A stretch of DNA of 64,000 nt from an uncultured Rhodocyclaceae bacterium (GTDB lineage: Bacteria > Pseudomonadota > Gammaproteobacteria > Burkholderiales > Rhodocyclaceae), in assembly GCA_907163075.1 (NCBI GenBank), contig CAJQTY010000001.1:3394580-3458579 (forward strand), written 5' to 3'. Shown one piece after another: positions 7,757-57,281 of the stretch. Both the position numbers and the translations under genes were made by a program. Under the pieces are notes generated by a model. It saw nothing but the letters and a program-made list of their open reading frames with translations, was not told the DNA's origin and ran no database searches. Position 1 is the first letter of the stretch. Each line of letters opens with the position of its first letter.

Positions 7757-7764
<8 letters not shown>

Positions 7765-17152: not shown

Positions 17153-17158
17153 TATAAT
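17153..17158 (+). promoter_or_regulatory. -10 element upstream of terC
   Basis: Exact TATAAT 51 bases before the terC start codon, with only a weak -35 candidate (TTACTA at 17132-17137, 15-base spacer). The implied leader is about 45 bases, too short for the manganese riboswitch that precedes some TerC/Alx genes. Confidence 0.4.
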
Positions 17159-17208
17159 CGCTCCTGTCGGTGGCCGTTTGGTCGCAGGTCTTTAATATAG
17201 GGATTCAA

Positions 17209-18021: not shown

Positions 18022-18050
18022 TTTTTCTACATGACTGCATGACTGCATAA

Positions 18051-27569: not shown

Positions 27570-28496
<927 letters not shown>

Positions 28497-30728: not shown

Positions 30729-30729
30729 A

Positions 30730-32733: not shown

Positions 32734-32735
32734 CA

Positions 32736-33260: not shown

Positions 33261-33263
33261 GCA

Positions 33264-34625
33264 ATGTCAATCGTAATTATTGCGGATCAACCTAATCTAG
33301 GCAGCATATTAACCAGCAGAAAAATATCTGAAAGATCTAAGTGCCAACTCCCTCTGATCCTTCACAATGGTGGCAGATTTGATTGGAATGCAAACGAATT
33401 CATTACCCATGCTGCTGGCGGCCCAAATACATACAACATAAAACCCCTTGCGACCACCGTCATTAAAAAGGCATACAACTTAAATTTATTTTGCTCATTT
33501 CTAGAGCTAGAAAACAAAACAATTTACGACGTAAACGATAGTATTCTCTATCAATTTGTTGACCATCTGAAAGAAAGAAAGCTCTCTGATGACACAATAA
33601 AAAAACACGTCAGGTTAGCTCTTGAATACATAATCTATACATCTAATCGACAACCAGAGAAGCTGATTGCCAGTTCCGATAAAACCAACACCAAAAATTA
33701 CAAGGTACACTACTCGATAAAGACAATAAAAAAAAGACATATCGAAATACAATACATTACTCACCACTGCCTAGATGGCTTAATTCATATAAGCGATGAC
33801 GTTGACTTCATCCGTGATCATGAGTTGGAAATGTGGCTTGATGCTATAAATTGCACTAAATTCCACCCAGTTGTTGATGATTTCCTCCTTAGCAGATGGC
33901 AAGCCTTCACCACTTTACTAGACGTCACTGGCTCCAGAATTACTGAAGCACACCAAATAACCAGGTCGATGATTAAGGAAGCAGCAAAATTAATGCTTAG
34001 TGCCAACAAGTTGCTCATCATTAGAAACATTCCTGTCGTAAAAGGCAAGCACAAAGGCAAAACACGTGAAGTTCAAACCACTCAGGAAGACCTTCAAATT
34101 CTTCTATGGCATATAGAAATGATAGAGACCATGTTTCCGAATATCAACCATGATTCTATATTTGTCGACTCAAGAAACGGTTCGCCTTTAAAAGCAACAT
34201 ACCTAAAGAATTATGCAAAAAAGGTTATAAACGCAAGCAAATACCGCCACGATCTTTGTCACATAACCAACCATTCCTTCCGTCATAGATTTATTACGCT
34301 AACAATATCAAAATCAATTAGCAAAATTTCAAAATCTGGAAGTTTCAATAATATTTTAACGGTTGCTGCAAATGCGTGCCGAAAAATCACCATGCACGCA
34401 TCTAATGACACATTATCCAGATACATCCATCTCGCACAAGTAGTCAATCAACCAAGCTCAGATCAAAGGGCGGAAGAAGGCACAATATCCACCCAAATTA
34501 AGCTTAGACTAAAACATATGTTCAAGGTTATTGACGGCCTGCACTCAAATATAATTAGCAAAAATGAAGCCTTAGAATCTTTATTAAAAACCTTATCTGA
34601 GGTACGTAGGATTTCTACAACCTAG
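33264..34625 (+). CDS. ginD: GinD-like tyrosine recombinase
   Basis: 453-residue phage-integrase-like recombinase closing the gin operon. N-terminal SAM-like core-binding domain around residues 70-130 (TTVIKKAYNLNLFCSFLELE, LYQFVDHLKERKLSDDTIKKH). Catalytic residues: Arg in DVTGSRITEAHQI (about 225), Lys region VKGKHKGKTREVQT, HSFRHRFI (about 337) and Tyr in SRYIHLA (about 386). The tail ends in a helix-rich segment. A/T-ending codons. It is followed by 58 bases and then the ISAs1-type element. Confidence 0.8.
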   Translation: MSIVIIADQPNLGSILTSRKISERSKCQLPLILHNGGRFDWNANEFITHAAGGPNTYNIKPLATTVIKKAYNLNLFCSFLELENKTIYDVNDSILYQFVDHLKERKLSDDTIKKHVRLALEYIIYTSNRQPEKLIASSDKTNTKNYKVHYSIKTIKKRHIEIQYITHHCLDGLIHISDDVDFIRDHELEMWLDAINCTKFHPVVDDFLLSRWQAFTTLLDVTGSRITEAHQITRSMIKEAAKLMLSANKLLIIRNIPVVKGKHKGKTREVQTTQEDLQILLWHIEMIETMFPNINHDSIFVDSRNGSPLKATYLKNYAKKVINASKYRHDLCHITNHSFRHRFITLTISKSISKISKSGSFNNILTVAANACRKITMHASNDTLSRYIHLAQVVNQPSSDQRAEEGTISTQIKLRLKHMFKVIDGLHSNIISKNEALESLLKTLSEVRRISTT

Positions 34626-34822
34626 CATTCTTAGTGATTCTGAACTGAGGTGCCCCCGGATTTAGTGCAAAGGGTGTTTTGGTCAGGGTCTCCGCACTCG
34701 AACAGAATAAATTATTCATTATAGCCTCTATCAAAAACTCTCTAACCTTCAATGACTTATGAAAAGACCTTGTAAACATTCAAGAAACCCCGTCTACGCT
34801 GATCTTTTGGGCAGCGTAGAAG

Positions 34823-35195
34823 ATGACGAGAGAAACGGCTTTGATGGAGATGCTGAGTGATGTGGACGACCCGCGCCAACCGAGCAATGGCACACGGCAT
34901 GACTTCCAGGAATTGTTGGTGATGACGATCTCGGCAGTGCTTTCTGACTGCGACACGATTGAAGACGTCGCCGCTTGGTCGCGTGCGCACACCACGTGGC
35001 TGCGGCAGTTCCTCGTGCTCAAGAATGGCGTTCCCTCGGAAGACACTTCTGCGCGTCTTCCGTCTGCTCGAACCAAAACAGTTTGAGCGGTGCTTCCGCC
35101 AGTGGGTGTGTAGCCTCAGAGCACTGGCTCAGTTGCGTCGCATCCAGCATCACCGCATTACCCTCAATGGTTCTCAGCCCAGCGCCGGACTATCG
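34823..35195 (+). pseudogene. ISAs1-family transposase N-terminal remnant
   Basis: Translation from 34823 gives the family opening: MLSDVDDPRQPSNGTRHDFQ, then LLVMTISAVLSDCDTIEDVAAWSR and FLVLKNGVPSEDT. Near 35045 the frame breaks; in the next frame it continues as LRVFRLLEPKQFERCFRQWV, the expected ISAs1 continuation. About 30 codons further on, recognisable similarity ends, and the IS5-type element begins at 35196. The DDE catalytic part is absent, so the gene is dead. Confidence 0.75.
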
Positions 35196-36805
35196 AGTCG
35201 CCCCTGCAAAATTCATTTTCAAGCACCAGCTAGCCGAAAATCTGGACAACTCGAATCTGTTTGCCGCTTTTCGGCGATAGCGAAAGCGAACAAGGCCAGC
35301 CAAAGAGGGCGCAAAAAAACAGCCTTCAGGCCAAGACGGAGCATCGCCCGCATCAACCAGCGCAGGTTGTAGCCCGCTGCGCACAGCACCGCATGGAGCG
35401 CGTCGCCGAGAGAACCCTTCAACCAGCAGCGATCCATTCGGTTATCGGACTTTAGGTGTCCAATCGCCGGTTCGACGGCTTGCCGTCGCTTGAGCCAGCG
35501 TCGTTGCGGTTTCGTCAGCGACTTGAATTTTCCACGGTGGATGATTTGCACGTTCGGATTGTCTCCATCGACACCCCGAAAGCCGAGATCGACCACGACT
35601 TCCTTCGGCGCACGCCCCACGTCTTCAAGCAGGATCGTCGTCTGCTCCAGTTGCGCATTGAGCAGATGACCGTCGTAGGGGTTGCCCGGGAAGGTACGGG
35701 CTCCGACCATCAAGCCGCTCTTGTGGGTGACGGCCACGCTGGCCTTGACGCCGAACTCATAAGGTTTGCGCGCCTTACCTTTGCCAATGCATTCAACCTC
35801 CGGCGCATGCAAGGCGTAAAGCTTGTTCTTGTCCTTCGGTCGTTGCGTCCGGATACGCTCGGCGCGCTCCATCAAGGTCGTCAGGTGGGTCAGTGTTACG
35901 GTCGATTCGGTGCGTGCACTCGTCTGCTTGCGTTTGATCTCGCGCAGGACGATGCCGAGGATCGTGCGCTGCCGCTTGACGACCCGCCGCAGGCGTTTGA
36001 ATTGTTTGGCGTGGGCGTAACCGCCGGCCTTGTGCCGGAGTTCTTTGCCTTCCTTGGCAAAGGTCTGTTTGAGTTCGATCCCGGCTTGCTTGGCGGCCTT
36101 AACAATCTTGGCGCGGGCGATTTCGAGCAGGCGGCTATCCACGGGGTGAGCAATGGCTTTCTCTTGTACGGTGGTGTCGACGATGAGGCGTTCGAATTCG
36201 TTCGGGCGAACGGCTTTGCTGGTGACCGCTGCGTCAATGGTGGCCTTGAGCAGTTCTTCAACGCCAGCTTCGCCAATGGCGGTGCGGAAACGTCCGATCT
36301 GGGTGGCATCGCAGGGGAGCCGGGGCTCGTAGTAGTCCAGGCCGCTGAAGTATTGCCAGACGACGTTCTCCGACCAGCGGGCGACCAGGTCGTCGTCGCT
36401 GAGATTGAAGGCGTGCTTGAGGTAGAGCAATGCGGCCATCAGGCGGATCGATAGGCGTGGGCGTCCGGCGGCACTGAGGCCGGCACCGGCTATTTCCTGC
36501 GTGGTGCCGAAAAGGTCACTCCTTTCGATCACTTGGCCCTGCCGATTCTTGCGGGCAAAGTTCGGCGCCAGTGCCATTTCGATTTGGCACCACGGCATCC
36601 GTCCGGCGAGCACCGCCAGTGGATGTCGCAGGTCAATCATCTGGTCCAATCGGGCTCGGAAAAAATCGTCGGTCGCCATTGCTTTGCTTTCGATTTCTCT
36701 CAGGTTTCGATAGCCAACATTTTAATATCTCGGAGATTCAGGCGGCGAGGTATCTGCCTCAATCCTAGCGCTCATGCGGCTTTCGGGAGTTTTGCAGGAC
36801 CGACT
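35196..36805 (-). mobile_element. IS5-type insertion sequence, apparently intact
   Basis: About 1610 bp. Left end AGTCGCCCCTGCAAAATTC and right end (reverse strand) AGTCGGTCCTGCAAAACTC form imperfect terminal inverted repeats. The element is flanked by a 4-bp direct repeat ATCG (35192-35195 and 36806-36809). It carries one transposase gene (35219-36679) and is inserted in the ISAs1-family element. Confidence 0.8.
35219..36679 (-). CDS. IS5-family transposase
   Basis: 486-residue DDE transposase, longer than the 330-residue IS5 type and closer to the IS1478-like group. The N-terminal DUF772-type domain has MAALLYLKHAFNLSDDDLVARWSENVVWQYFSGLDYYE and PCDATQIGRFRTAIGEAGVEELL. DDE acidic residues fit LIVDTTVQEKAI, EVVVDLGFRGVD and AVEPAIGHLKSDNRM. 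The middle carries a basic linker. Frame and ends look intact, so it may be active. Confidence 0.9.
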   Translation of the reverse strand: MATDDFFRARLDQMIDLRHPLAVLAGRMPWCQIEMALAPNFARKNRQGQVIERSDLFGTTQEIAGAGLSAAGRPRLSIRLMAALLYLKHAFNLSDDDLVARWSENVVWQYFSGLDYYEPRLPCDATQIGRFRTAIGEAGVEELLKATIDAAVTSKAVRPNEFERLIVDTTVQEKAIAHPVDSRLLEIARAKIVKAAKQAGIELKQTFAKEGKELRHKAGGYAHAKQFKRLRRVVKRQRTILGIVLREIKRKQTSARTESTVTLTHLTTLMERAERIRTQRPKDKNKLYALHAPEVECIGKGKARKPYEFGVKASVAVTHKSGLMVGARTFPGNPYDGHLLNAQLEQTTILLEDVGRAPKEVVVDLGFRGVDGDNPNVQIIHRGKFKSLTKPQRRWLKRRQAVEPAIGHLKSDNRMDRCWLKGSLGDALHAVLCAAGYNLRWLMRAMLRLGLKAVFLRPLWLALFAFAIAEKRQTDSSCPDFRLAGA

Positions 36806-37079
36806 ATCGACGACCAGCCCCGAGCAAACACAGATCTTGGCAGCTTTGAATCTCGAAAAACCACGATTGCCGGAGCAATTAACCTTGCTGTAGTGGCATT
36901 TTTTAAAACGACCTCTAATAAATTCAGATACTTGCGTCTGTAACTGTTGAACTCGGGGGAGTACGGTTTTGCTCAATTCTTGTGCAACTTTCGAGTCCTT
37001 TTTGGCTATGCATTTCGAGTGCGGAGACCCTGGCTTACAGCCAAGTATTATGTGACATTCCTAACTAAAATCTTAGTAA

Positions 37080-38885
37080 CTAAGCTATCGCGGGGAGAAT
37101 CCGGGGGTCACAATATTCCTCGTTAACAATAGAACCGTTATCAACAACATAAATGTGATCTACCCATTTAATGGCGCTAACTTTATGAGTAATTATTATC
37201 GATATTCTATACTTCAAAAAAAATTGCAGACTGTTCCATAATAAACTCTCTGTTTCAGCATCCAGGGCTGATGTAGCTTCATCTAAAATAACAATTCTTG
37301 GATCCCTAAGAATCATGCGCGCTATAGCTAATCGCTGTTGCTGCCCGCGTGATAGATGCCCTCCCTTATGCCCAACTGGTGCATCTAATTGTTCTTCTAG
37401 ACTAGTCACGTAATCCTTCAATTGTGCAATCTCTAAAGCATTCCACAACTGTGAATCAGTGAAATTCCCTCCCATGCATAAATTACTTCGAATCGAGCCA
37501 TCAAAAAAATACGCCTCTTGGAAAACGGCAACAACATTCTCTCTCAAAGCGTCGCGCCCAATATTTTCTATAACAACGCCACCGTATCGTATGCTTCCTT
37601 CCGGGAAAGAATATGCGCCCAGCAAAAGTTGTACCAATGTTGATTTGCCGCTGCCGCTTTTTCCAACAATCGCTATTGATTTCCGATTGCCAACACACAT
37701 ATCGATTCTATTTAATAGCGGCAACTCCTTAACATAAGAAAAGCTCAGTCCTTTGATCGACACCGAGATACTATCCTCATTAAATGGGTTATTCTCGCCC
37801 CCTGTTAAGAGCTCCTCACCTTCGAGTTCAAAAAAATGATTAATGCGTGCCAGTGATTCCCTTGCCTCACAATAGGTACGATGGGCGATTAGAAGATCAT
37901 AGATAGGAGCCGAGATTAGAAACAAATAAGAGAATACCGCAAACATCATTCCAATTGTTAAATCGGAATTTATAACCAAAAATAGCCCTCCGATTCTGAA
38001 CACATCTATTCCAAGCTGTAGAACAAATAAGCTGAACTGCACCGTTTTGTAGCTATCTGCTTTGAAAGCATAGCTAGCCGCTTTGTATTCTTTAGAACAA
38101 GACGCAAGCTTAGAGGTGTAATAAGCCAACCGGTTTGTCAGTTTTAGCTGACGATATGAATCGAGAGTATCACTCAGGAGGCTTAGAAATTTATCGTATA
38201 TAGTATTTTCATAAACTCTAGCTTCACCAACGTTATTCCCAAGCCTACTCGCAATATAAATCACTGCTGGATTTATCGTTATAATACAAATTGCCAGTTT
38301 CCAATGAATGGAGAACAGCGCAATGAATGCTCCTATTAAAAATACAGAGGAAACCACTATTTTACTAGTAGAGGCGTTTATAAAATCTTCTATCGCGTCA
38401 ACGTCTTTTAAGATTCTAGTAGAAATTCCTGAATTTCCAATTTTATTGTATTCGTTTATTGCCACGCCATTCAGTGCATATAAAAGCCGAAGTCGCAAAT
38501 GATGAGAGATTTCTTTTGAAATGATAACGAACTTATTATATTGTGAAATATCCATTACCAAATTTACAACTTTTAATGCGGCACCCATAATACCTATTAA
38601 AGCTAGATATGTAAGCGGCTTTTGCAAATACTCTGGCAGCAGCCTATTAATCGTTTGCAAGAAAAAACCTGGACGGTTTAGCAATACCTCATCAACAATT
38701 AGAGGTATGAGCAACGGGCTAGGGACGGCAGCTAATGCTGCCAAAATCGCAACTACGTTCGCCTCAAGAAGCGCCACTCTATTTCTATGCGTGATAAAAA
38801 GAAGATTCTTCCATGTATATTTCTTGGTCCAAAATCTTGATTTGCTCATATGATTGGCGGAATTAAGAACGTCGCTAGTATTCAT
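37080..38885 (-). CDS. ABC exporter (fused permease-ATPase)
   Basis: 601-residue half-transporter of the MsbA/type IV exporter kind. N-terminal membrane domain with about six hydrophobic helices (residues 30-320), C-terminal ATPase with Walker A IVGKSGSGKST, Q-loop VVAVFQEAYFFDGSI, signature LSRGQQQRLAIARM and Walker B RIVILDEATSALD. No N-terminal peptidase domain, so it does not process a double-glycine leader itself. A strong AGGAGAGC site precedes the start. It is the last gene of the leftward cargo set, and the obvious export or self-protection candidate for its product. A/T-rich codon use, unlike the host genes. Confidence 0.92.
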   Translation of the reverse strand: MNTSDVLNSANHMSKSRFWTKKYTWKNLLFITHRNRVALLEANVVAILAALAAVPSPLLIPLIVDEVLLNRPGFFLQTINRLLPEYLQKPLTYLALIGIMGAALKVVNLVMDISQYNKFVIISKEISHHLRLRLLYALNGVAINEYNKIGNSGISTRILKDVDAIEDFINASTSKIVVSSVFLIGAFIALFSIHWKLAICIITINPAVIYIASRLGNNVGEARVYENTIYDKFLSLLSDTLDSYRQLKLTNRLAYYTSKLASCSKEYKAASYAFKADSYKTVQFSLFVLQLGIDVFRIGGLFLVINSDLTIGMMFAVFSYLFLISAPIYDLLIAHRTYCEARESLARINHFFELEGEELLTGGENNPFNEDSISVSIKGLSFSYVKELPLLNRIDMCVGNRKSIAIVGKSGSGKSTLVQLLLGAYSFPEGSIRYGGVVIENIGRDALRENVVAVFQEAYFFDGSIRSNLCMGGNFTDSQLWNALEIAQLKDYVTSLEEQLDAPVGHKGGHLSRGQQQRLAIARMILRDPRIVILDEATSALDAETESLLWNSLQFFLKYRISIIITHKVSAIKWVDHIYVVDNGSIVNEEYCDPRILPAIA

Positions 38886-38899
38886 GCTGCTCTCCTGAA

Positions 38900-39028
38900 C
38901 TAGTCTGTGGATACACTGCGGGTGCGCCGCGCAATTAGCTGAGAGGTCTTATTATGGGAATTATCGGCGCCGTATCTCGCAATGTCGCAATGAGAGCTAC
39001 TTGCGATCTGACCGTCTTGTTTTCCCAT
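38900..39028 (-). CDS. Doubtful 42-codon ORF between ddl and the ABC exporter
   Basis: Small frame starting ATG at 39028 and ending 14 bases before the exporter start codon, in the 237-base gap between the ligase and exporter genes. The product would be hydrophilic with one Cys and a Ser/Asn/Arg-rich tail. A purine-rich GAAGTAGAG just before the ATG is a poor but possible ribosome-binding site. The same frame extends upstream into the ligase gene. No homologue is recognised. It is listed because a precursor peptide next to an exporter would matter; chance is at least as likely. Confidence 0.2.
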   Translation of the reverse strand: MGKQDGQIASSSHCDIARYGADNSHNKTSQLIARRTRSVSTD

Positions 39029-39122
39029 CTCTACTTCGGTATCGTGCCAATGCTGATTAATTTCACATTGAATAACGAATTCCGCCCAACTGAATGCCCA
39101 GTATGCCGGAGGTACTTCGCTC

Positions 39123-40217
39123 CTACTCTTCCAAAAATTTATCCTGCGCAAACCTATCGATGGCAAATGTAATTAATTTGTTAACCAAATCCCTATAGCT
39201 AATACCGGCGGCCTCAAATAATCTAGGATACATACTGATATCAGTAAATCCTGGAATAGTATTAATTTCGTTAATAACTAGGCTTCCATCATGCTTGAGG
39301 AAAAAGTCTACGCGAGCAAGACCTTCACAGCAGAGCACTTTGAATGCCTTGACTGCAAGTTCTCTGACTTGAGCGCTAATCGCATCGTCGATTTTGGCTG
39401 GTATTGTCGATGTAGCACCATTTTTATCAAGGTACTTCGCTTGATACGAATAGAAATCATGGAGAGGGATGATCTCACCAACTACCGATGCAATGGGGTT
39501 CTGGTTACCGAGCACGCCACACTCCACCTCTCTTCCGTCAATGAATGACTCAATAAGTATCTTTTTGTCATACCTAAACGCAATTTCAATAGCCCTTGCC
39601 AAATCAACTTTGATCGAGACCTTGCTAATACCCACTGAAGACCCAAGATTTGCGGGCTTAACGAAAACAGGCATTCCTAGTTCAACCGCAATCTTATCGT
39701 AATCAAACGTTTTTTCGCGATCTAACGCGATAAACCTTCCCACAGGAAGCCCTGCCTCGCGTAGAAGACGTTTTGCAACATCTTTATCCATTCCTATTGC
39801 AGAACCAAGAACTCCGGAGCCAACAAAAGGCACATCTGCCAATTTCAACAAACCCTGAATTGTACCGTCTTCGCCAAATGGTCCATGTAGCAAGGGAAAG
39901 ACAACATCAACGTCACAAAACTTAGTGTTGTTTGATAGATTTATTAACGTACCGCCGCTTTGCGGCACAAGTGCAACATGAACTCCCTCATCTGAATTAA
40001 TGCGAATAGAATTGGGATTGTTTTGATCAAACAAAAACTTCGTATTTCTAAAAGCGAACCATTGACCTGATCTAACTATCCCGATAGGAATTACATCATA
40101 TCTGTCTCTATCGATGGCCTTAATTACGTTATTTGCAGACTGTAATGAAACACTGTGTTCTGCAGATTTTCCACCAAATAAAATAGCTACACAGATCTTC
40201 TTGTCGGTAATACTCAT
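39123..40217 (-). CDS. D-alanine-D-alanine ligase type ATP-grasp enzyme
   Basis: 364-residue Ddl of the DdlA size class. N-terminal domain ILFGGKSAEHSVSLQSANNV, central PLLHGPFGEDGTIQGLLKLADVPFVGSGVLGSAIGMDK, ATP-grasp core VFVKPANLGSSVGISKV, then EVECGVLG, and metal/substrate motif ARVDFFLKHDGSLVINEINTIPGFTDISMYPRLFEAAG. All catalytic motifs are present. Coded on the AT-rich island within a biosynthetic gene set, and starting in ATGA overlap with the oxygenase gene. It is therefore either a self-resistance ligase (as Ddl homologues are in D-cycloserine clusters) or a peptide-bond-forming step of the pathway. The host should have its own ddl in the murein gene cluster. Confidence 0.9.
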   Translation of the reverse strand: MSITDKKICVAILFGGKSAEHSVSLQSANNVIKAIDRDRYDVIPIGIVRSGQWFAFRNTKFLFDQNNPNSIRINSDEGVHVALVPQSGGTLINLSNNTKFCDVDVVFPLLHGPFGEDGTIQGLLKLADVPFVGSGVLGSAIGMDKDVAKRLLREAGLPVGRFIALDREKTFDYDKIAVELGMPVFVKPANLGSSVGISKVSIKVDLARAIEIAFRYDKKILIESFIDGREVECGVLGNQNPIASVVGEIIPLHDFYSYQAKYLDKNGATSTIPAKIDDAISAQVRELAVKAFKVLCCEGLARVDFFLKHDGSLVINEINTIPGFTDISMYPRLFEAAGISYRDLVNKLITFAIDRFAQDKFLEE

Positions 40218-41014
40218 GTATGATTTCCTTTTTTAATCCAGTAATTTATAAGCAATTTCCGATAAGGACATTTCAATTCTGTTGCGCGATGGAGTCCTCT
40301 TGAATCAAATATAATTAAAGTACCCGCCGGCCCTGTGCAAATTACATCTTGCAGCCCATATAAAGTCTTAAACTCATTAACTTCATAAGGCCAGTAACAA
40401 CCAATAAATGCCAAATCGGGACTCGCCGCATAGCCACGATCGTTAGTCTTATAGCGAGCATCTATTCGTGCTTCCATTGGGAGCCTCCACGCTCCTTCAT
40501 GGCTGCCTTTTAAATAGATCATCGGGGCTTCGTCCATCCCAACATCATGTAAATACAGAAACGCCTTTAAACGATGTTTCCACGTATCCATGTGATACAT
40601 GCGATCGCACGCAATCACCTGGCCTTTGGTGCGTCTCCATTCAATGCTTCTCCGTAAGGAAATAACATCATTGCCAATATATGCTTTTGCAATATCACCA
40701 AGCAATTGACTATTGAAGAACTCAGAGAAACCAGAAAGAGTGTGCGCATTCAGATAAAATAACGCCCGATCGCCCTCTACGGATTCCTCGAAGCTGCTTT
40801 CGTCTGGAACACATGCGAGCATTCGAGCTGCGGTTTGTTTAGAAACAAAATCTGGAATGACAACAAAACCGTCTCGCTTAATTCTATCGACATGCCCTCG
40901 CAAGTGATCTGGCGGACGTATTGTCTTGACATTTGAAAAATAACGTCGTTTTCTTTCTAAGAAAATTAACGTGGTTATGAATCCCAACTGACTTTCGATG
41001 AAATGTCTATTCAT
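40214..41014 (-). CDS. Phytanoyl-CoA dioxygenase-like Fe(II)/2-oxoglutarate oxygenase
   Basis: 266-residue PhyH-type protein. The double-stranded beta-helix iron site reads His141-x-Asp143 in RMYHMDTWKHRLKAFLYLHDV, and the distal His242 in IIFDSRGLHRATELKCPYRK, followed by the Arg that would hold 2-oxoglutarate. GTLIIFDSRGLHRA and YLKGSHEGAWRLP are standard PhyH features. Such enzymes hydroxylate, halogenate or desaturate natural-product intermediates, mostly free or carrier-bound amino acids. The gene overlaps the ligase gene (ATGA) and lies 23 bases after the ATP-grasp gene, so all three are one transcription unit. Substrate unknown. Confidence 0.82.
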   Translation of the reverse strand: MNRHFIESQLGFITTLIFLERKRRYFSNVKTIRPPDHLRGHVDRIKRDGFVVIPDFVSKQTAARMLACVPDESSFEESVEGDRALFYLNAHTLSGFSEFFNSQLLGDIAKAYIGNDVISLRRSIEWRRTKGQVIACDRMYHMDTWKHRLKAFLYLHDVGMDEAPMIYLKGSHEGAWRLPMEARIDARYKTNDRGYAASPDLAFIGCYWPYEVNEFKTLYGLQDVICTGPAGTLIIFDSRGLHRATELKCPYRKLLINYWIKKGNHT

Positions 41015-41037
41015 ATTGGCTAACTTTATTAGTCAGG

Positions 41038-42282
41038 CTAAACAAGAAGTTCTTGGCGAATATTAGCTGCTTTTTGGGTAATTTCGGCGTAATCTTGCCC
41101 AACTATCCACGCTCGGGCCACACAACATCGCCCACCTGTCTGTTGCCAGTTGACAATAGCATCCGATCCATAGATTTGCGTTGCTTTTACGACGCCTGGG
41201 ATCTTTCTGATTTCTGGAAATTTTTCCAATTTCAATAAATCTCGTACGCGCCCAGTGTGGGGCGAAGATATGGCAAACATAGCTCCCACGCCCACCGGAC
41301 TGCTTGGTCGATCGCTTTTCTCAACGCGGAGCCCACATGCTATCTTGAGGGCTGCTGGATACTGTGATTTACCAAAAACGTTTCGGTAGAGCGGTGTCAT
41401 TGAGGAACAAACTCGCCCATTAACTTCAGTAACCTGAATCTTGCCGTCGTCCCGAACCCAGATCTCAACATTCCAAAAACCGTCTTTAAGTCCGAATCTT
41501 GCGACGGTATCCATTGCCACATCGCAAACAGCTTGAGACATTACGTCGGTCAAGCGAGTTGGGATACTGTTATTGTCTAGGGCTGCAGATAATCCCGGAA
41601 AATAGTTGTTATCCGAAACTGCCCAAATATGCTGAACCCCATCAGCATCCGTCCATCCCTCGACTGCATGTTGGCTAATAGCATTTCCCACAAACTCCTC
41701 AGCGAGAAAGCAATGTTGATCGGCAAGAGGGTATTTTTCATCGTCAATATAATGACTAAATAATTCAACGAATGGACGCTCCCATTCAGGGGCGCTCGCC
41801 TTCAATCGTGAAACTGCTCTTTCGAGCTCCTTTTCACAATGGACAGTAGTTTGAAGCAAACTAAAAAAAAGTGAAACTGGTTTCACGTGGATTGGAAAAT
41901 CCACTGCATTTCTCCACTTGTCACTATCGAAAGAAAACCCAGTGAAACGGATAGGGCTACGCTCGGTGGCGCGGGAATATAGCTTATGGTTTGCCAAGAA
42001 CATTGATTCGATTGACGGAGCCGCTAATCCAACAGTTTTTGCCACGATTGCAGCAATAAAATTGGCCAAATCATCCGTGTAAAATATCCCACATGCGTTA
42101 GTCTGTCTTACACGCTCGACACATCTGTTGACGTAAGCAAGGGGAAAAAAACCAGTAAGTGATGGTTCATAAGATCGCCAGTTTTCGTCGTCAAGAAAGT
42201 CAAATGTGTATCCTGCACTTTCTAAGCTTTGGAGCTCATCGTAATCTTGTTTTGATGGAAGTAGTACCAGAACGTGTTTCAT
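41038..42282 (-). CDS. ATP-grasp ligase (carboxylate-amine ligase type)
   Basis: 414-residue ATP-grasp enzyme. Recognisable parts are the N-terminal Rossmann-like part (MKHVLVLLPSKQDYDELQSL), a VKPVSLFFSLLQTTV strand region, CFLAEEFVGNAISQHAVEGW, and the metal-binding GFWNVEIWVRDDGKIQVTEVNGRVCSS. The last matches the ExNxR motif of L-amino-acid ligases such as BacD-type enzymes. The C-terminal 120 residues fit the extra domain seen in those ligases. It would join an amino acid or small acid to an amine through an acyl phosphate. First gene after the IS4-type insert; two GATAATATCC boxes lie 150-190 bases upstream. Substrate unknown. Confidence 0.8.
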   Translation of the reverse strand: MKHVLVLLPSKQDYDELQSLESAGYTFDFLDDENWRSYEPSLTGFFPLAYVNRCVERVRQTNACGIFYTDDLANFIAAIVAKTVGLAAPSIESMFLANHKLYSRATERSPIRFTGFSFDSDKWRNAVDFPIHVKPVSLFFSLLQTTVHCEKELERAVSRLKASAPEWERPFVELFSHYIDDEKYPLADQHCFLAEEFVGNAISQHAVEGWTDADGVQHIWAVSDNNYFPGLSAALDNNSIPTRLTDVMSQAVCDVAMDTVARFGLKDGFWNVEIWVRDDGKIQVTEVNGRVCSSMTPLYRNVFGKSQYPAALKIACGLRVEKSDRPSSPVGVGAMFAISSPHTGRVRDLLKLEKFPEIRKIPGVVKATQIYGSDAIVNWQQTGGRCCVARAWIVGQDYAEITQKAANIRQELLV

Positions 42283-42428
42283 AATTTAATTCCTATAAAT
42301 TATATAGATATTCCGCGCAAGTGTTTGGTAATCAATAAGATAGGACATTGAATCGCGTAAGTGATAAATACAAATTTTTGAACTAGCCAAAAAATATTAG
42401 AATAGAGTGACCTCGCGTCTTCTGTGGT

Positions 42429-42470
42429 GGGATAATATCCTGTAGTTAAATTTGCGGTTGATAATATCCG
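42429..42470. promoter_or_regulatory. Paired operator-like repeats upstream of the ATP-grasp gene
   Basis: GATAATATCC occurs at 42431-42440 and again at 42460-42469, 29 bases apart, close to three helical turns. With its preceding base the first copy is a perfect odd palindrome, GGATA-A-TATCC; the second is TGATA-A-TATCC. They lie 148-187 bases before the ATP-grasp start and 30 bases from the IS4-type element. This pattern suits a dimeric repressor or activator. No regulator gene was seen within the cargo. Confidence 0.45.
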
Positions 42471-42502
42471 TGTCAGAAAGAGCCTGCCTTATATGGCTAA
42501 AG

Positions 42503-43992
42503 TCATTCCCTTACACACAACTCATATAGCATTTATTGACCGCATATGCTCGATCCCGTCCACAAAATCCCTGATGCGCACGAAGCCAAGCCAAAGCGTC
42601 TTGACGCCGGGTTCGCCGTCACTTTTCCGGGCGAGGAAGCCGCCGAGCATGGCGATCCGCCGGATGACCTCGTGGAGCGTGGGCGTTGTTTTCGGGATGG
42701 GTTTCTTGGCCAGGATATACGCGCCTTTCCACTCCTCATCAGTGAAAAGAGCCGTCGCAACGAGGTCCGGATGGGTTCGTCCCAGGCGGACCAATCGTGC
42801 CAGTCGCCACGACACGACCATATAAACGGCCAACGCCAGTTCAATCTTGCCAACGCTCCCGAGTTGCAAGGCTTCGACCCGACAGCCGTTCTTGAGCACA
42901 TGGAAGAAGGTCTCGATTTCCCAGCGGCAACGATACCATTCGATCAGTTCAACGAGGTCGTCAAGCGTCTGCGTTACGCGGTTCGTCAGCAGTCGCCACT
43001 CGACCGGCTTGACTCCGTCGGGCGCGGCAATCTCCTTGGCAATCAAGCAGGTCACCGACATGCTGCCGCCTTGGCCGTCAGCCAGACTGATTTGGCGAGC
43101 AAAGATCTGCTGACGCACCATTCGCTCCGCCTGCCCGTGACGCGAAGCCATCATGAATTCAAGCTCACCGAGCGGCGCACCGGCAAGAACGGCCGCCCAC
43201 AGCTTTCCGCCATCAGGAAGGCAGCGATTGTGTTTCGATCGGATCAGCCAGTCGGCAGGGCTTCCCAATGCGTGACCGCGCTGCATCAATTCGACAATGT
43301 CGGCTTCCCGGTCAGCCACATAAACGAGCCGGGTGTCCGGCAGGGTTGCCGCCATTTCGGCAATGCGCTCGTAGCCTTCCGTCCAGCGCAGGCTTTCACG
43401 GATTCCCGGACGCGTACCGTCAGCCGTTTTGGGTTCTCGTGCCCACATCCAGGCATCGGTGATACCCAACGGTTCGCGTTCCGGCGTCACGACATAGGTC
43501 GGATGCAGGTACATCCCACGCTGTGCTTCGTAAGAGAGCGGACCGAGGCCGCTAATGTCTTGTCCGTTAAAGTCCAGTTCGGTACTGTCTTGCAGGCAAA
43601 GGACGACCGGGTGCTGGCGCATCCTGGCTTCCGTCTGGGCGATGTGCGGATCGAGGATATCCTGCCAGCCCAGCGAGCGCTTGCCGTCGCTGGCTTGATC
43701 GAAAAATCGATAAACCCCTTGGGTCTCCGCCCAGTCGGGGCACGCGCCGGGAATACTGGCCGTCGGTTTGTCGGCAAAACGTGCCGCCAGTTTGATCAAC
43801 CGACGGTTCAACCGACCGTCCCCCAGTTCCGCACCGGCAAATTCTTCCGCCGCCCAAGTCGCCATCGCCATCTCCTCGTCGAAATGACGATTCGAAAGCA
43901 AGGTGTATACCCGTTTGCTCGGAAAATCGGAAAAATTAGTACGGATAGTCACGGTGTGGTTTTATGCAATTCGAGTTGTGTGTAATGGAGTG
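42503..43992 (-). mobile_element. IS4-family (Tn5-like) insertion sequence, apparently intact
   Basis: About 1490 bp. Ends: left TCATTCCCTTACACACAACTC and right (reverse strand) CACTCCATTACACACAACTC. Perfect 8-bp direct repeat GGCTAAAG flanks it at 42495-42502 and 43993-44000. One transposase gene inside. It lies between the fusion-protein gene and the ATP-grasp gene of the cargo set, so it may have cut an operon. The clean duplication points to a recent insertion. Confidence 0.88.
42522..43865 (-). CDS. IS4-family transposase (Tn5/IS50-like)
   Basis: 447-residue transposase. The ATG at 43865 has GAGGAG six bases upstream and gives MATWAAEEFAGAELGDGRLN, the usual N-terminal DNA-binding start of the Tn5 group; longer in-frame starts exist up to 43952. 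Catalytic motifs: LCLQDSTELDFN (first Asp), LVYVADREADIVELM (second Asp) and the YREK-like stretch WYRCRWEIETFFHVLKNGCR (Glu). High-GC codon use, unlike the AT-rich cargo around it, in keeping with an origin in the host or its relatives. Confidence 0.92.
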   Translation of the reverse strand: MATWAAEEFAGAELGDGRLNRRLIKLAARFADKPTASIPGACPDWAETQGVYRFFDQASDGKRSLGWQDILDPHIAQTEARMRQHPVVLCLQDSTELDFNGQDISGLGPLSYEAQRGMYLHPTYVVTPEREPLGITDAWMWAREPKTADGTRPGIRESLRWTEGYERIAEMAATLPDTRLVYVADREADIVELMQRGHALGSPADWLIRSKHNRCLPDGGKLWAAVLAGAPLGELEFMMASRHGQAERMVRQQIFARQISLADGQGGSMSVTCLIAKEIAAPDGVKPVEWRLLTNRVTQTLDDLVELIEWYRCRWEIETFFHVLKNGCRVEALQLGSVGKIELALAVYMVVSWRLARLVRLGRTHPDLVATALFTDEEWKGAYILAKKPIPKTTPTLHEVIRRIAMLGGFLARKSDGEPGVKTLWLGFVRIRDFVDGIEHMRSINAI

Positions 43993-44096
43993 GGCTAAAG
44001 TATCCGCAACCGAAATACGGTCAGAACAACTGCTGCCAAAGTTGAGCATAGACGTTAGAACACAAAAGCAGGAGCCGTTGATTGGCAAAACATGGT

Positions 44097-44440
44097 CATA
44101 GCCTTACACACAACTCATTTTGCCTGAAGCGCTCGCGTATGTTCGTCGCGCGACGAAATCCCTGATGCGCTAAAACCCCAGGCTTCAGGATTGTTGTCTC
44201 ATTCGGGATGGCGCTCTGGAATGCGTCAAGGTCGGCAAATTGCCATAACAACGGCATGTGATGCGTTTCATCCGTCGGGGGATCAGAGTAGCCAAACCTG
44301 CGCTGCAAGCAGTGAATCCGGAACTTCGCCGACAGCCCTGTTGGACGACTGCCACGACCTGCCTTTTGAGAAACACCAGGGCTTCCGCACTCGTAATGCA
44401 TACGCTGAAAATTCCTGAACTTACACAGAATTTGAGCAAA
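44097..44440. mobile_element. Fragments of a second IS4-type end and a second ISAs1-type end
   Basis: Bases 44101-44118 (CCTTACACACAACTCAT) repeat the left end of the neighbouring IS4-type element, and ATCCCTGATGCGC at about 44157-44169 repeats its internal sequence. The similarity fades by about 44240. At 44373-44391, CAGGGCTTCCGCACTCGTA followed by ATGCATA is a diverged copy of the right end of the ISAs1-type element at 37032. TTGAGCAAAACC further in is also shared. Both are old relics with no coding capacity. Confidence 0.6.
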
Positions 44441-44940
44441 ACCTGTTTCGTACCTCGCTAGTCCGAGCGCCTTTATGCAAAATGGTCACCAGTGCAACAT
44501 AACGACCGAATAAATCGCCAAAAATCTGCACCATTTCACTAGCATTGAACCTCTATGCCAGCCCAGTTCAGAACTCTGGTGCGCGAACACTACGACACAA
44601 CCGTGTTCATCCCAGTAAGTAACTGACCCAGCTCGATTTTGCCACGCTTGGGTAGAATTCTCGTTTCGGCTAGACTCAGTTGCCCATCTACTTCTCACTC
44701 ATGTCGTTGCAATAGCAAAATTATCGCTGCTCAGCTGCTCAGCGTCGCTATTTGTGCTGATTTCTTTCGCGTTTTTCTATAGCCATTCTGCTTTGTATTT
44801 ATTACGTGGTACCAAGATATTTTCGGAGGCATCGCAAGAGAGCTTCTATCGTATCAATTTAGCAAAAACAACTAGATTCAAAGTCCTCAATGCATGCATT
44901 GATCCAAGTGAATCCGATAAATAGTGCAGATGAATGAGCA
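44441..44940. other. 500-base stretch without a supported gene
   Basis: AT-leaning sequence downstream (in transcription sense) of the fusion-protein gene. No open frame with a credible product and no clear terminator was found. It may contain further worn IS sequence. Confidence 0.4.
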
Positions 44941-47703
44941 TTATCGACCCAATTTCAACAGGTGGTTCTTGATGTAAGGAAGAAGAGCTTCTGCATCTTT
45001 ACCTTGATTACAAAGACAAGTTGAACTTAGCCTCTGAAGATTAAATAAACCTACAAAGAAAATACCTTCTTCCGGAGAGACGCCGTCATGTCCTAAAGGA
45101 TAAGAAAATTCATCAAATAAATTTTCTACTTCTAGCCATGGCCACTCGCTCCTAAATCCCGTTGCGTAAATAACAGTTGAAATTCCGGCTGTTTTTAAAT
45201 TAATTTGAGTTGGTGCATCAGGAACTAACCAATTATCAGTCACTTCCGGTGGTGTAAATTCTCCCTTGCTAATAGAACAAATATTTTTTTTACCGTAGAA
45301 TTTGGAAGCAATTCTTAAAAGTTTTTCATATTCATTACGAGTCCCAGAAATAGCGCGTTCAATTTGTTCCCTTATTGCCTTAAATTCCGCGACGCCTTCT
45401 TTATTCACCGACCGAAGCTTTCCAAGCAATACAACCCCAGCCTCAGACAGCGTTTTTAAACTAATAGAATGCCCAAAACCATTGCCACCATTGCCCGATA
45501 CCAAGGGGAACTCGGTTGACCTTGCTTTTTGCAGAGCCCCCGGTTTACCAGACAGAACATCCGGATCGTCATCGATGTGCCGATGCATGATTCCGCCGAT
45601 CTCCCACCATTCCATGAAATCTTTGCCGTAAATTCGACGAGTGTTCGATGGGCGATCAGACAAAGACCAATAGACTTCTCGCCCCGTAGCAAGTAAATCC
45701 TCGGTTATTTGGGCACCAGATTGCCCTCCTCCAACTACTAGGATGGCGCCTTGCTTCAACAACATTGCATTGCGATAATCCCGCGAATGTACCTGGTCGA
45801 TTTCAGGAGAAAAGCCGCCGTCAATCAGCGGTTTGCGAGGAGAGGAATACTCACCAGTCGCAATTACTATTGATTTTGCGAAAATTCGAGATGTTTCTGT
45901 CGTGATAAAAAACTTTTTTCCTTCACGTTTAACGGATATGACACGATTATTACAAGCTACAGGTAATTGAAATTTTTCAGCGTACGAGGACAGAAAATTA
46001 ATGACATCTTCTTTTGTGCTGAATCCGTCCGGATTAGATCCGGCGTACCTCATACCCGGAAGTGCTAATGTCCGATTTGGCGTATTGAGGCGAAAGCTAT
46101 CCCATCGGTTCTGCCAACTTGAACCAATAGTATTGGCCTCAATCACCAGATGGTTGATCCCACTCTGTTTCAAGGTGTAGCTAGCACTTAAACCGGATTG
46201 GCCTGCGCCAATGATTACGACATCGCATTCTAGTGACGTATCGCCTTGTCCAAGTCGCGAAAAAGTAGGTTCAATGAGTTTTGTTGGCAGTTTAATCCAT
46301 TTCACCTCGGCATATTTGTTACCAGATGTAATGGCTGCCGCGTCGGCTTGGGTTGCATATTCAACAAGCACCGCATGACGAATGCCTTTCTTGAGGCAGG
46401 TAGCTACCGCTACTAGGCATTCCTCATGAGATGGAACACATTCCCATGCAACATGGTTAGTGTTTAGCAAATCTTGCCAATTACGGATATTTTCCTGCAT
46501 ATCAAACAGACTCTGTGTGGCACCTATGACTTCCTTTGCATAGTCTTCATCTTTGAAGGCACATAGCATTAGATAGGAAAAGCAGCACTTAGTACATTTT
46601 TGGCACCAAGGCTTATCGATGTTGCAAGAGTGCGTTTTTCGAAGAAGATCTTCTTCAGTGGCGGCAATCGCGTAAATGGAGCTGTCGCTAAGACCGCGTA
46701 ATGTGCTTGAGAAGCCATCGAATCCACGAACGCCAGTTATGTTAGCAAATAGATCGGTACTTAATTTTTGATACTCTTGTGTCTTACACCACTGGTGATT
46801 GATGCTTTCCTCACCCCATTGGACCATTCCTCGATCTGCGGATTCTTCGATATTGAACCACACACCCTTGTATTCGTGATACAGCACTAATGGGAAGTAT
46901 CCAGGATAGTTGGCTGTATGGCCAACAGAAAAATCAGATTTGTAGTGCTTTGTGGTTACGCCAATTCTGGCGAAATCTTCGTGCGTGGTTGAGAAGAAGT
47001 TGTCTTGGATTGAAACCTTAATCAATTGATTGCTGCTTGGTGCAGCGGCATCACGAAGGTTACTTAACAGCGATTCTTGCACGATCGACGAGCCACCAAT
47101 AGGTAGGCTCCCTTCGTATATATCAAAACTCAGCTTTGCATCTTTCATAAGAATCATGCCGACAAGTGAATCTTTACCGCCGCCGTTTGTCAGAAGTATC
47201 CGGTTTCCTGGGATTCCCCGACCAACTTCATCCGATAGTTTGGGTACCTGATTCAATGTTGCGGCATTATTCTGAAGAAGTGGGTAGCTATGGGCGCGGT
47301 AGGAAAATTGGTTACGATACCGCCACTCTCCAAATTGCCTTCTAAAGCAGGTTCGCCAGAGTTCTTGAGTTTTCTCATCAAGATACACGTCATCGCAAAG
47401 AGTTAGGGTTTCACCACCGAGAGCCATAAATCGCATGCAGTCCCAAGCGATTAATGCACCAATAAGTTGCGATTTGCATAAACTGGTTTCGAACTTGTTC
47501 CAAAGTGCATTCCACGAGGGGATAGAGTGATATGTTATTTTTGAGAAAAAGTTTTCGCCGGCAATGTCGACGTATATTGTTATACTCGCTGGATTAGATT
47601 CCAAAAGGAATCTCGTAACCGTCACATTGAAACGGGGATCAGATTGAATTGCTCTGGCTTGCTTTGTGTTGTCCACTGTTTTGTTGTGAGTTTCTTCTGT
47701 CAT
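44941..47703 (-). CDS. Fusion protein: PP-loop/MurL-like domain plus flavin-dependent monooxygenase
   Basis: 920-residue two-part enzyme. Residues 1 to about 480 resemble the MurL (UDP-MurNAc-peptide L-Glu epimerase) type: an ATP-pyrophosphatase-like loop GGGKDS at 174-179, and a cysteine cluster Cys360, Cys367, Cys370, Cys373 and Cys374 within CNIDKPWCQKCTKCCFSYL. Residues 493-920 are a class B flavin monooxygenase of the CzcO/FMO type: FAD site VVIIGAGQSGLSASY (499-504), LPGMRYAGSNPDGFSTKEDV, NADPH site VVGGGQSGAQ (about 640) and YATGFRSEWPW. One chain could thus activate a carboxylate with ATP, perhaps for epimerisation, and oxidise a nitrogen or carbon. A good AGAAGG site precedes the start. 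The FMO assignment is firm; the N-terminal one is tentative. Confidence 0.72.
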   Translation of the reverse strand: MTEETHNKTVDNTKQARAIQSDPRFNVTVTRFLLESNPASITIYVDIAGENFFSKITYHSIPSWNALWNKFETSLCKSQLIGALIAWDCMRFMALGGETLTLCDDVYLDEKTQELWRTCFRRQFGEWRYRNQFSYRAHSYPLLQNNAATLNQVPKLSDEVGRGIPGNRILLTNGGGKDSLVGMILMKDAKLSFDIYEGSLPIGGSSIVQESLLSNLRDAAAPSSNQLIKVSIQDNFFSTTHEDFARIGVTTKHYKSDFSVGHTANYPGYFPLVLYHEYKGVWFNIEESADRGMVQWGEESINHQWCKTQEYQKLSTDLFANITGVRGFDGFSSTLRGLSDSSIYAIAATEEDLLRKTHSCNIDKPWCQKCTKCCFSYLMLCAFKDEDYAKEVIGATQSLFDMQENIRNWQDLLNTNHVAWECVPSHEECLVAVATCLKKGIRHAVLVEYATQADAAAITSGNKYAEVKWIKLPTKLIEPTFSRLGQGDTSLECDVVIIGAGQSGLSASYTLKQSGINHLVIEANTIGSSWQNRWDSFRLNTPNRTLALPGMRYAGSNPDGFSTKEDVINFLSSYAEKFQLPVACNNRVISVKREGKKFFITTETSRIFAKSIVIATGEYSSPRKPLIDGGFSPEIDQVHSRDYRNAMLLKQGAILVVGGGQSGAQITEDLLATGREVYWSLSDRPSNTRRIYGKDFMEWWEIGGIMHRHIDDDPDVLSGKPGALQKARSTEFPLVSGNGGNGFGHSISLKTLSEAGVVLLGKLRSVNKEGVAEFKAIREQIERAISGTRNEYEKLLRIASKFYGKKNICSISKGEFTPPEVTDNWLVPDAPTQINLKTAGISTVIYATGFRSEWPWLEVENLFDEFSYPLGHDGVSPEEGIFFVGLFNLQRLSSTCLCNQGKDAEALLPYIKNHLLKLGR

Positions 47704-48124: not shown

Positions 48125-49027
48125 CTATTCAACAAAGCCGAACAACGTTGTGGTACACACAAACATCAGAGCAACGATCCAAGCGGTCAGTTCAACATGG
48201 TGCACCGCTAACCCAATATCCGCCTCTGACGGTTCATGTCCGCTTGCGTTCAGCACATAGCCATTGGGTTTTCGAAGTAGCAAATTGCGAGACAATGCTA
48301 GAGCGCCCATGGTCCACCCCTGATTTGGCGACTCGGTACGAGCGGCTTCGCTAGGAAGCCGCGGAAACAGTCGCATGGCACCCGGGCCGACGAGCAGCAG
48401 CGCAAGACCTGCGATTCGTGCGGGTATCAGATTTAGGAGATCATCTGCCCGCGCAGCGAACTTTCCGGCCCATTCCCAACGACCTCGATATCCCCACATA
48501 GCATCAGCTGTATTTGCAAAGCGATAAACAGCTGCGCCTGGAAGGCCGAACAACGCAAACCAGAACAAAGGTGCAATCACTGAGTCCGTAAAATTCTCGG
48601 CCAGAGAAATTAGAGAAGACTCGCGAATTTCGCTCCTATCCAGACGAGCCGTATCGCCTCTAACAATTCTGCGCAAGCGCTCTCGGCCTTGCTCGACACT
48701 GTCCTTCAACGCGGTCTCAACTGCGCTCACTTCACGAAGAAGTAAGCGCAGAGCAAACAGTGGTTTTAGAAGCATGGCCGTGACAGAAACCTCCAGCCAT
48801 GCGGGAAGATTTGTCAACAAGAAGGCAATGTAGCTGTACATGACCGCTATCAGCGTCGCGCCAACAAGCCAATAGGCAGCGCCAAGAATCAGCGCACGGG
48901 TCGGGGCATGAGCAGGCAAGTCACGCCCTAGTTGCTCCAAATAATATCCCATCCAGACAACCGGATGTAGCCGATTGGGCGGCTCTCCAAGCCAACGGTC
49001 AATCAATAAAGCAAGGATAGTAGTCAT
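48125..49027 (-). CDS. cobD: Adenosylcobinamide-phosphate synthase (CobD/CbiB)
   Basis: 300-residue membrane enzyme that attaches aminopropanol (phosphate) to adenosylcobyric acid. The ATG at 49027 gives TTILALLIDRWLGEPPNRLHPVVWMGYYLEQL, the standard opening. Later motifs are VRGDTARLDRSEIRESSLISLAENFTDSVIAPLFWFALFGLPGAAVYRFANTADAMWGYRG and LLNLIPARIAGL. Four to five membrane helices. An upstream in-frame ATG (49096) adds 23 non-conserved residues. It is on the same strand as, and downstream of, the cobalamin operon, but separated from cbiP by the nested IS block. Its base composition is less GC-rich than the main operon. Confidence 0.92.
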   Translation of the reverse strand: MTTILALLIDRWLGEPPNRLHPVVWMGYYLEQLGRDLPAHAPTRALILGAAYWLVGATLIAVMYSYIAFLLTNLPAWLEVSVTAMLLKPLFALRLLLREVSAVETALKDSVEQGRERLRRIVRGDTARLDRSEIRESSLISLAENFTDSVIAPLFWFALFGLPGAAVYRFANTADAMWGYRGRWEWAGKFAARADDLLNLIPARIAGLALLLVGPGAMRLFPRLPSEAARTESPNQGWTMGALALSRNLLLRKPNGYVLNASGHEPSEADIGLAVHHVELTAWIVALMFVCTTTLFGFVE

Positions 49028-49391
49028 GATATCGAGTGGTGTCCGTGAACGAGCAACCGCGTAAACATTCACTTCTACGACTGCCCAGATTGCCAATGCT
49101 AAAACTCGAAATTAGGAGGTTGTAAAATATAAAATCTGTTGCCGTAAAACCGGTTGAACGCAAATAGGTCGTCCACAAAATACAGTAGGCATATAATAGC
49201 ATTTATACAGCAAGACCAATAGTGGTTTGACATACCGTCCTACCGCGCCCTCTGGCCCGTGTCGTGGCGATGACTTCGTGCATGGCCGCCAAGCTGTTCT
49301 TCAAATTTGCTGCGAACCTTCAGTAATTCATTACCGGCCGTAGTCGACGTCGACCCGTTCGACCCGGGCTCGACAAATTCACGAAGATTGA
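49028..49391. other. Leader of cobD and left flank of the IS3 element
   Basis: Bases 49110-49230 are AT-rich. Bases 49240-49391, on the minus strand, form the end of an open frame ([12 protein letters not shown]..., ending [16 protein letters not shown] and a stop at 49240) that continues into the IS3 end; without the IS it would join the cbiP 3' flank at 53541. I do not recognise it. It may be the tail of a lost gene between cbiP and cobD. Confidence 0.4.
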
Positions 49392-49441: not shown

Positions 49442-49765
49442 ATGAAGAAATCAGTTAAGTTCTCCCCCGAAGTTCATGAGCGCGCCGTGCGCATGGTTGC
49501 TGAGTGTTGCCGCGATCACTCCTCGCAATGGGCGGCAGTTGAATCCATTGCGGCCAAGATCGGCTGCACGCCACAAACGTTGGTCACTTGGGTGCGTCAG
49601 CACGAGCGAGATAGCGGCCAGCGTGAAGGACCGACGACAACAGATCAGAAACGCGTCAAGGAACTGGAGCGCGAAGTCCGAGAGCTACGCAACGCCAGCG
49701 AAATCCTGAAGCTGGCCAGCGCGCTTTTCGCCCAGGCGGAGCTCGACCGCCGATTCAAGTCTTGA
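49442..49765 (+). CDS. IS3-family OrfA (helix-turn-helix transposase subunit)
   Basis: 107-residue OrfA. Starts [20 protein letters not shown], with the helix-turn-helix [28 protein letters not shown] and leucine zipper [30 protein letters not shown], as in the IS51-like group. It is intact, but its partner orfB is destroyed, so the IS3 element cannot move by itself. Confidence 0.9.
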
Positions 49766-49863
49766 GATCTTTCGTCGACGAGCATCTTGATGCCTTCGGG
49801 GTCGAGCCGATCTGCAGGCAGTTGCAGACCGCCCCGTCCGGCTACCGGCGCCATGTCGCCTTA

Positions 49864-55069: not shown

Positions 55070-55109
55070 CTCTAGTTCCGATTTGCTTTCGAAAAACGCT
55101 CCGGCTTCG

Positions 55110-55895: not shown

Positions 55896-55990
55896 TTCAA
55901 AATATGTTCAAAACCAGAAACGGTACGCGAGCCCATGCAACACCCGCGTTCCGTCATTTTTCACTCCACTCCTTTTCCATCGGCTCGTAT

Positions 55991-57280: not shown

Positions 57281-57281
57281 T

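Follow-up and report, generated by a model that had tools for sequence, protein, structure and literature searches.

A candidate NRPS-free peptide pathway with an extra D-Ala-D-Ala ligase gene on a mobile island inside ligA of a Rhodocyclaceae bacterium

Five foreign genes and the IS elements among them

The window analysed here, a stretch of 64,000 nucleotides from the genome of an uncultured Rhodocyclaceae bacterium, carried a set of five genes, all of which were complete, full length and encoded on the minus strand. The first in the order of transcription was the gene for a fusion of a MurL-like domain with a flavin monooxygenase (FMO) (44941-47703; 920 aa). It was followed by an ATP-grasp gene (PF13535; 41038-42282; 414 aa) for a proposed peptide ligase, a gene for a PhyH-type Fe(II)/2-oxoglutarate oxygenase (40214-41014; 266 aa), a gene for a DdlA-type D-Ala-D-Ala ligase (39123-40217; 364 aa), which was complete by sequence and is proposed below to be a self-immunity copy, and a gene for an ABC exporter whose membrane and ATPase domains are fused (37080-38885; 601 aa; PF00664 and PF00005). 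The exporter contained the motifs GKSGSGKS, LSRGQ and IVILDEA. As the preliminary description had stated, the three middle genes overlapped or nearly touched: the Ddl and PhyH genes shared 4 bases, and the PhyH and ATP-grasp genes were spaced by 23 bases. The last four genes were closely spaced except for the 237 bases that separated the Ddl gene from the exporter gene. Promoter-like sites were not more common than expected by chance (12 versus a mean of 18.2 in shuffled sequences). Family profile scans of the five proteins revealed no NRPS, PKS or lanthipeptide family, in agreement with the earlier claim that such enzymes were absent.

The genes and their coordinates had been described correctly, but the set was not contiguous. 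A gap of 2.66 kb, which had been passed over, lay between the MurL-like/FMO gene and the other four and contained an intact IS4-type element and relics of IS elements. The IS4/Tn5-type element (42504-43992, minus strand) encoded a transposase (42522-43952; PF02281, PF14706 and NF033590, the latter with 347 bits), ended in the inverted repeat I2 (42504-42532/43964-43992) and had the 9-base target duplication GGCTAAAGT directly outside both ends. The relics of IS ends (44095-44443) consisted of the direct repeats D1 and D3 and the inverted repeats I1 and I4, which were common to both IS elements, and were older than the intact element. Among the frames of the gap (42.3-44.9 kb), the transposase and a 101-aa frame at 44096-44401 were scanned for families, and no Pfam match was found for the 101-aa frame. 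The other IS element, of the IS5 family (34684-37033, minus strand; transposase at 35219-36679, NF033578 with 516.5 bits; terminal inverted repeat I3), was located between the recombinase genes described below and the exporter gene. Elsewhere in the window, an ALIL pseudoknot (RF01497) was found at 49720-49836 in an IS3-like region; this pseudoknot is a frameshift signal of IS elements.

The set was co-directional and AT-rich, as previously described: GC at third codon positions was 0.36-0.40 in the five genes versus 0.75 in three host genes. Codon use in the exporter, Ddl, PhyH and ATP-grasp genes correlated mutually at r=0.65-0.87 and with that in the three host genes at r=0.03-0.15. For the MurL-like/FMO gene, the correlation was r=0.87 with the recombinase genes and 0.67-0.76 with the other four genes of the set. 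Both the set and the recombinase operon differed from the host genes in base composition and codon use, which points to a foreign origin. Codon use provided only moderate evidence that the MurL-like/FMO gene belonged with the other four; since this gene was separated from them by IS elements and was closer to the recombinases in codon use, it may have been acquired separately.

An island inserted in ligA

The five genes were cargo of an island of approximately 45.6 kb that was inserted inside the host ligA gene and carried another complete ligA. The C-terminal half of the host gene formed the left flank of the island (27570-28493, minus strand); it encoded the LigA C-terminal domains, with the first residues encoded by the island. 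The N-terminal part lay towards the beginning of this contig (contig positions 19773-21041). In all six same-genus genomes that were searched (out of 27 others listed for the genus), ligA was one open frame of 676-787 aa, and the two halves matched these contiguous genes end to end with 63-83% identity. The nucleotidyltransferase gene after ligA was the same neighbour here and in the same-genus genomes. The ends of the contig overlapped (window 54327-63995 and contig 1-9905, 92.5% identity); therefore, closure of the chromosome is most likely, with an insert that extends from window position 28497 to about contig position 19770, roughly 45.6 kb. This match was most likely an assembly end overlap, and one copy of the overlapping 9.7 kb was probably of low quality. 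At the junctions of the island, GACGTG and GATGTG (about 6 nt) were present on the two sides, with GATGTG at the left ligA junction. A rearrangement was considered as the origin of the break in ligA and was rejected since the break fitted the two ends of the island.

The second ligA (contig 17069-19093) was located near the right end of the island and was approximately 30% identical to the ligA of the genus. Its product scored 407.5 bits with TIGR00575, below the cut-off of 444.45, and 373 bits with NF005932, above the cut-off of 369. It was as if the island, in splitting the essential ligA, brought its own replacement.

A four-gene recombinase operon (28563-34625, plus strand) with products of 721, 667, 174 and 453 aa occupied the left end of the island. 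The 667-aa and 453-aa products matched the integrase family phrog_1 (E=4.2e-6 and 8e-12, respectively), and the 721-aa and 174-aa products had no PHROG match; the small 174-aa product was third in gene order. GInt islands, such as the phaseolotoxin island, have been described as inserted site-specifically and as carrying a recombinase operon at one end, and those of pseudomonads as flanked by imperfect direct repeats of 10-11 nt (PMC5385486). The operon was compared with the GInt arrangement, in which three tyrosine recombinases and one small protein are encoded in one operon. The island resembled GInt islands in its apparently site-specific insertion and in its recombinase operon at one end followed by cargo. 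It differed from them in that only two of the four products matched an integrase, the small protein came third, and the insertion site was in ligA, with another ligA aboard. Because integrase models matched two of the four products, membership in the GInt group was likely but not established. The proposed mobile location was borne out: the foreign gene set was part of an apparently site-specific island inside ligA.

Genes for B12 (cobalamin) synthesis and cobalt uptake were also found inside the island (window 53558-63492, and positions 1301-6413 of the locus at the contig start). The four B12 genes that were tested had host-like codon use (r=0.94). A cobD-like gene was present at window positions 48125-49096.

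The cargo enzymes and their relatives

The ATP-grasp protein matched PF13535 with 40 bits (cut-off 27). When a three-sequence profile was used, its best solved relative was 3vot, the L-amino-acid ligase BL00235 (E=0.0075), and BacD was matched at E=0.99; when the single sequence was compared with the PDB, no characterised amino-acid ligase was found at E<=0.1. The predicted link to L-amino-acid ligases is weak. Free-standing ATP-grasp ligation has been described for TabS (tabtoxin) and DdaF (dapdiamide) (PMC12568646). The set resembled the bacilysin (BacD), tabtoxin (TabS) and dapdiamide (DdaF) sets in its putative free-standing ATP-grasp ligase, with weak profile matches to BL00235 and BacD. 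To our knowledge, none of these three sets includes a MurL-like epimerase or an extra Ddl. A product made by free-standing ligases had been proposed earlier; the ligase fitted this proposal, with BL00235 reached only by the profile, and the product class is putative.

The PhyH-type protein had the intact metal triad that had been reported for it, with HMD at residue 141 and the distal histidine in an LH near residue 241, but its family assignment was weak (PF05721, 22.5 bits versus a cut-off of 22).

The ATP-grasp and PhyH proteins were both rare. The former was matched in 13 of 398 genomes of the phylum, including its own (the best other match was 29% identical over part of the length), and within the genus only in its own genome (1/28). 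Its full-length relatives, 31% and 29% identical, were found in two Syntrophomonadaceae assemblies. A scan of genome contigs gave 62 pattern stretches and three relatives, whose loci (5.7-13.2 kb) contained none of the other cargo parts, and no relatives were found in viral contigs. The PhyH protein was matched at E<=1e-6 in two of 398 genomes of the phylum, including its own; among plasmids, a single record had a match to it, with 26% identity.

The FMO fused to a MurL-like domain was confirmed as one 920-aa frame, with both model scores below the curated cut-offs. The MurL-like half (residues 1-484, approximately) matched the MurL model NF041275 at E=6.5e-17 with 61.1 bits, below the cut-off of 700. 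The FMO half (approximately residues 493-917) matched TIGR04046 at E=3.2e-85 with 286.5 bits, below the cut-off of 498.35, and was aligned over model positions 2-396 of 400. The fusion contained the motifs GGGKDS at residue 174, GAGQSG at 499 and GGGQSG at 658. The MurL-like half was aligned with five MurL-like proteins, three from Pseudonocardia plasmids and two from other genomes, one of which scored above the MurL cut-off. Among the six sequences, 36 columns were invariant, including GG(K/R)DS, NHQWxK, SCN and WCxxCxKC, although the MurL-like half was only 21-24% identical to the others. Thus, this half resembled MurL in GG(K/R)DS and other invariant residues and differed from it in its low identity, in its fusion to an FMO and in the absence of a MurD-type partner from the set: neither a MurD2-type partner nor a Mur ligase was found among the five cargo proteins. 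The FMO half aligned over nearly the full length of the MSMEG_0569-family flavin oxidoreductase model (TIGR04046), but it scored below the cut-off and was fused to a MurL-like domain. According to the passages on MurL in two reviews (PMC8788868, PMC5808125), this enzyme is an ATP- and Mg-dependent one-way L-to-D epimerase, for which adenylation of the substrate carboxylate has been proposed; its mechanism is called unclear there.

On the three Pseudonocardia plasmids (L044, L045 and L046; about 9.6-11.1 kb), the MurL-like gene, encoding approximately 465 aa, occurred in the same setting, with neighbouring genes for a long WD40 or hypothetical protein, a sigma factor and a GH16 protein.

At E<=1e-6, the MurL-like half was found in two of 399 genomes of the order, including its own. 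It had matches in three plasmid records, none of which covered 80% of it, and the whole MurL-like/FMO protein was matched by 1466 plasmid records, none over more than 80% of the protein. In 27 other genomes of the genus, there was no match to either half at E<=1e-30, and viral contigs contained no relatives of the fusion. One genus of the same class, perhaps a xanthomonad, had relatives of the FMO half with 45-50% identity in 29 of its 91 genomes. In all 14 of the 29 loci that were fetched at 20 kb (L097-L110), the FMO relative adjoined PotF-like and glutamine-synthetase/gamma-glutamylputrescine-synthetase-like genes; the PotF-like and glutamine-synthetase-like reference products scored below curated cut-offs. 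Searches of these 14 loci revealed neither a MurL-like part (best E=2.3) nor relatives of the PhyH, Ddl and ATP-grasp proteins at E<=1e-4. A 46% identical FMO relative in another genome (G094) began at a contig edge, where its N-terminal side was not readable. Since the FMO relatives in the 14 loci lacked a MurL-like part, a general partnership of MurL and FMO was argued against, and a polyamine-related substrate was left possible. The closest FMO relatives, some of them in open frames of up to 949 aa, resembled further fusions, but the 14 loci contained no MurL-like part.

The constant neighbourhood of the FMO relatives, observed within one genus, and the fact that MurL and Ddl are families of cell-wall enzymes are consistent with a system for cell-wall or polyamine modification, in which the FMO would act on a polyamine-type amine, the ligase and Ddl would change cell-wall precursors, and no product would be secreted. 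This is quite improbable, considering that the set includes a dedicated exporter and that the five proteins were found to include neither a MurD-like partner nor a polyamine gene product nor a cell-wall polymerase. An alternative cell-wall pathway with MurD2 was likewise rejected because none of the five proteins was a Mur ligase. An anti-phage defence system was also rejected because there was no PADLOC system match; the individual matches were three of ABC/ATPase type to the exporter and a short one in the FAD region of the MurL-like/FMO protein, with none for Ddl, PhyH and ATP-grasp.

The expectation that the set would recur in unrelated bacteria was not borne out by any search. No recurrence was found in the genome contigs, viral contigs, plasmids (queried with the MurL-like/FMO protein, ATP-grasp, the MurL-like half, PhyH and Ddl) and whole genomes searched; in one whole-genome search, scoring was confined to two candidates in each of most genomes, and weaker matches may have been missed there. 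Among 97 non-host loci (of 110 in total), many of about 4 kb, no two relatives of the MurL-like half, ATP-grasp, PhyH and Ddl occurred together at E<=1e-5. In those loci that had two matches, the second was always an ABC protein, nearly always by its ATPase domain only; this domain is very common. The view of the set as an unmatched one on an island holds, the set having been seen once. In open-licence titles and abstracts on MurL with biosynthetic gene clusters, on MurL and on ATP-grasp dipeptide pathways, the combination was not described among the matches listed, and nothing was found in the open-licence literature on Ddl self-resistance with ATP-grasp.

Non-recurrence is among the observations expected if the genes were chance neighbours, that is, unrelated cargo of an IS-rich island, or if at least the MurL-like/FMO gene had no connection with the remaining four. 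The IS elements that lie between parts of the set, the codon use of the MurL-like/FMO gene, closer to that of the recombinases, and the presence of IS and B12 genes on the island point in the same direction. However, the three genes for ATP-grasp, PhyH and Ddl are overlapping or almost adjoining and resemble the exporter gene in codon use, and all frames are intact, so chance association appears rather unlikely.

The extra Ddl and the proposed pathway

The island Ddl scored 479.5 bits with NF002525, above the NCBIfam equivalog cut-off of 457 for D-alanine--D-alanine ligase. In an alignment with Enterobacter DdlA, the host Ddl and others, the motifs SAEH, GSSVG, AKY, RVD and NEIN, which we take to be active-site motifs of Ddl, were intact. 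Its closest solved relative was a DdlA (3q1k, E=1.7e-112). In a plasmid database, an Enterobacter ddlA (L056, 5986-7083) carries the label of vanG glycopeptide resistance, at 38.9% identity. At E<=1e-20, the host had two Ddl proteins among 61 genomes of the family, whereas 59 of the 60 others had one and the remaining genome had none. The preliminary description had allowed for closer housekeeping relatives in the host, and for four of the five proteins none was found: the host's own Ddl was 42% identical to the island Ddl over 250 residues, and within the genome there was no other match to ATP-grasp at E<=1e-3, to PhyH at E<=1e-6 or to the MurL-like/FMO protein at E<=1e-30.

Because the island Ddl exceeded the equivalog cut-off, retained its motifs and was an extra copy beside the host's own, it more likely serves self-immunity through target duplication than product formation. 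In the simplest reading, it would be a spare target, possibly a less sensitive one. The earlier proposal of two peptide-bond-forming ligases for the product thus lost one of them, as the canonical DdlA score and the extra copy make immunity more likely. Integron-borne ddl copies have been reported to give D-cycloserine resistance (PMC7691350), and DcsI and DcsJ of the D-cycloserine cluster of Streptomyces lavendulae have been described as involved in self-resistance (PMC6100412). As in that cluster, the biosynthetic genes of the island are accompanied by genes for a membrane protein and an additional Ddl, here putatively for export and immunity. The D-cycloserine cluster also includes an ATP-grasp enzyme. 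Its arginase-like, O-acetylserine-sulfhydrylase-like and haem enzymes were not found among the five proteins here, and PhyH, FMO and MurL-like domains are present instead.

Alternatively, Ddl could be a product-forming ligase that joins D-residues supplied by the MurL-like domain with D-Ala, giving a D,D-dipeptide derivative, in which case the set would have no immunity gene. The handling of D-amino acids is common to the MurL and Ddl families, and the 4-base overlap of the ddl and oxygenase genes suggests that they are probably translated together. Nevertheless, we consider this unlikely: the score above the equivalog cut-off and the normal motifs are those of a canonical Ddl and not of a diverged ligase, and the clustered Ddl of the D-cycloserine precedent serves immunity (PMC6100412).

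Returning to Ddl as an immunity copy, we tentatively propose that the five genes could encode a pathway without NRPS whose product, a small modified peptide, would interfere with the synthesis of D-Ala-D-Ala, and that they include their own immunity; this is a real possibility, somewhat short of probable. The ATP-grasp enzyme would join two L-amino acids, as its family suggests. The MurL-like domain would then activate the C-terminal carboxylate with ATP and turn that residue from L to D, by analogy with MurL and in line with the conserved residues. Judging from their families, the PhyH-type enzyme and the FMO of the fusion would oxygenate the peptide, the ABC protein would export the product, and the extra DdlA-type ligase would keep the cell-wall synthesis of the producer going. 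This order of ligation, epimerisation, oxygenation, export and immunity appears likeliest because the MurL-like half retains residues common to MurL-like proteins. At the sequence level, the proposal draws on the completeness of the genes, the foreign codon use that they have in common, their intact catalytic motifs and the additional Ddl, which relatives were not seen to have. As a reading from family logic and one example, it is the best available, and its weakest points are the absence of recurrence and the IS-separated fusion gene.

In the passages on MurL in the reviews cited above (PMC8788868, PMC5808125), this type of ATP-dependent epimerase is described in cell-wall synthesis only. A more specific version of the proposal, which is doubtful as a whole, is that a MurL-type epimerase was recruited and fused to an FMO and installs a D-residue in a ligase-made antibiotic targeting Ddl, while the island carries a spare copy of the target and both disrupts an essential gene and brings its replacement.

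The five intact genes are few enough for testing in laboratory strains. If the immunity reading is true, the extra Ddl directly indicates what the natural product would act on, D-Ala-D-Ala ligase, for which we know of few natural inhibitors beyond D-cycloserine, and MurL-type epimerases would gain a role outside the cell wall.
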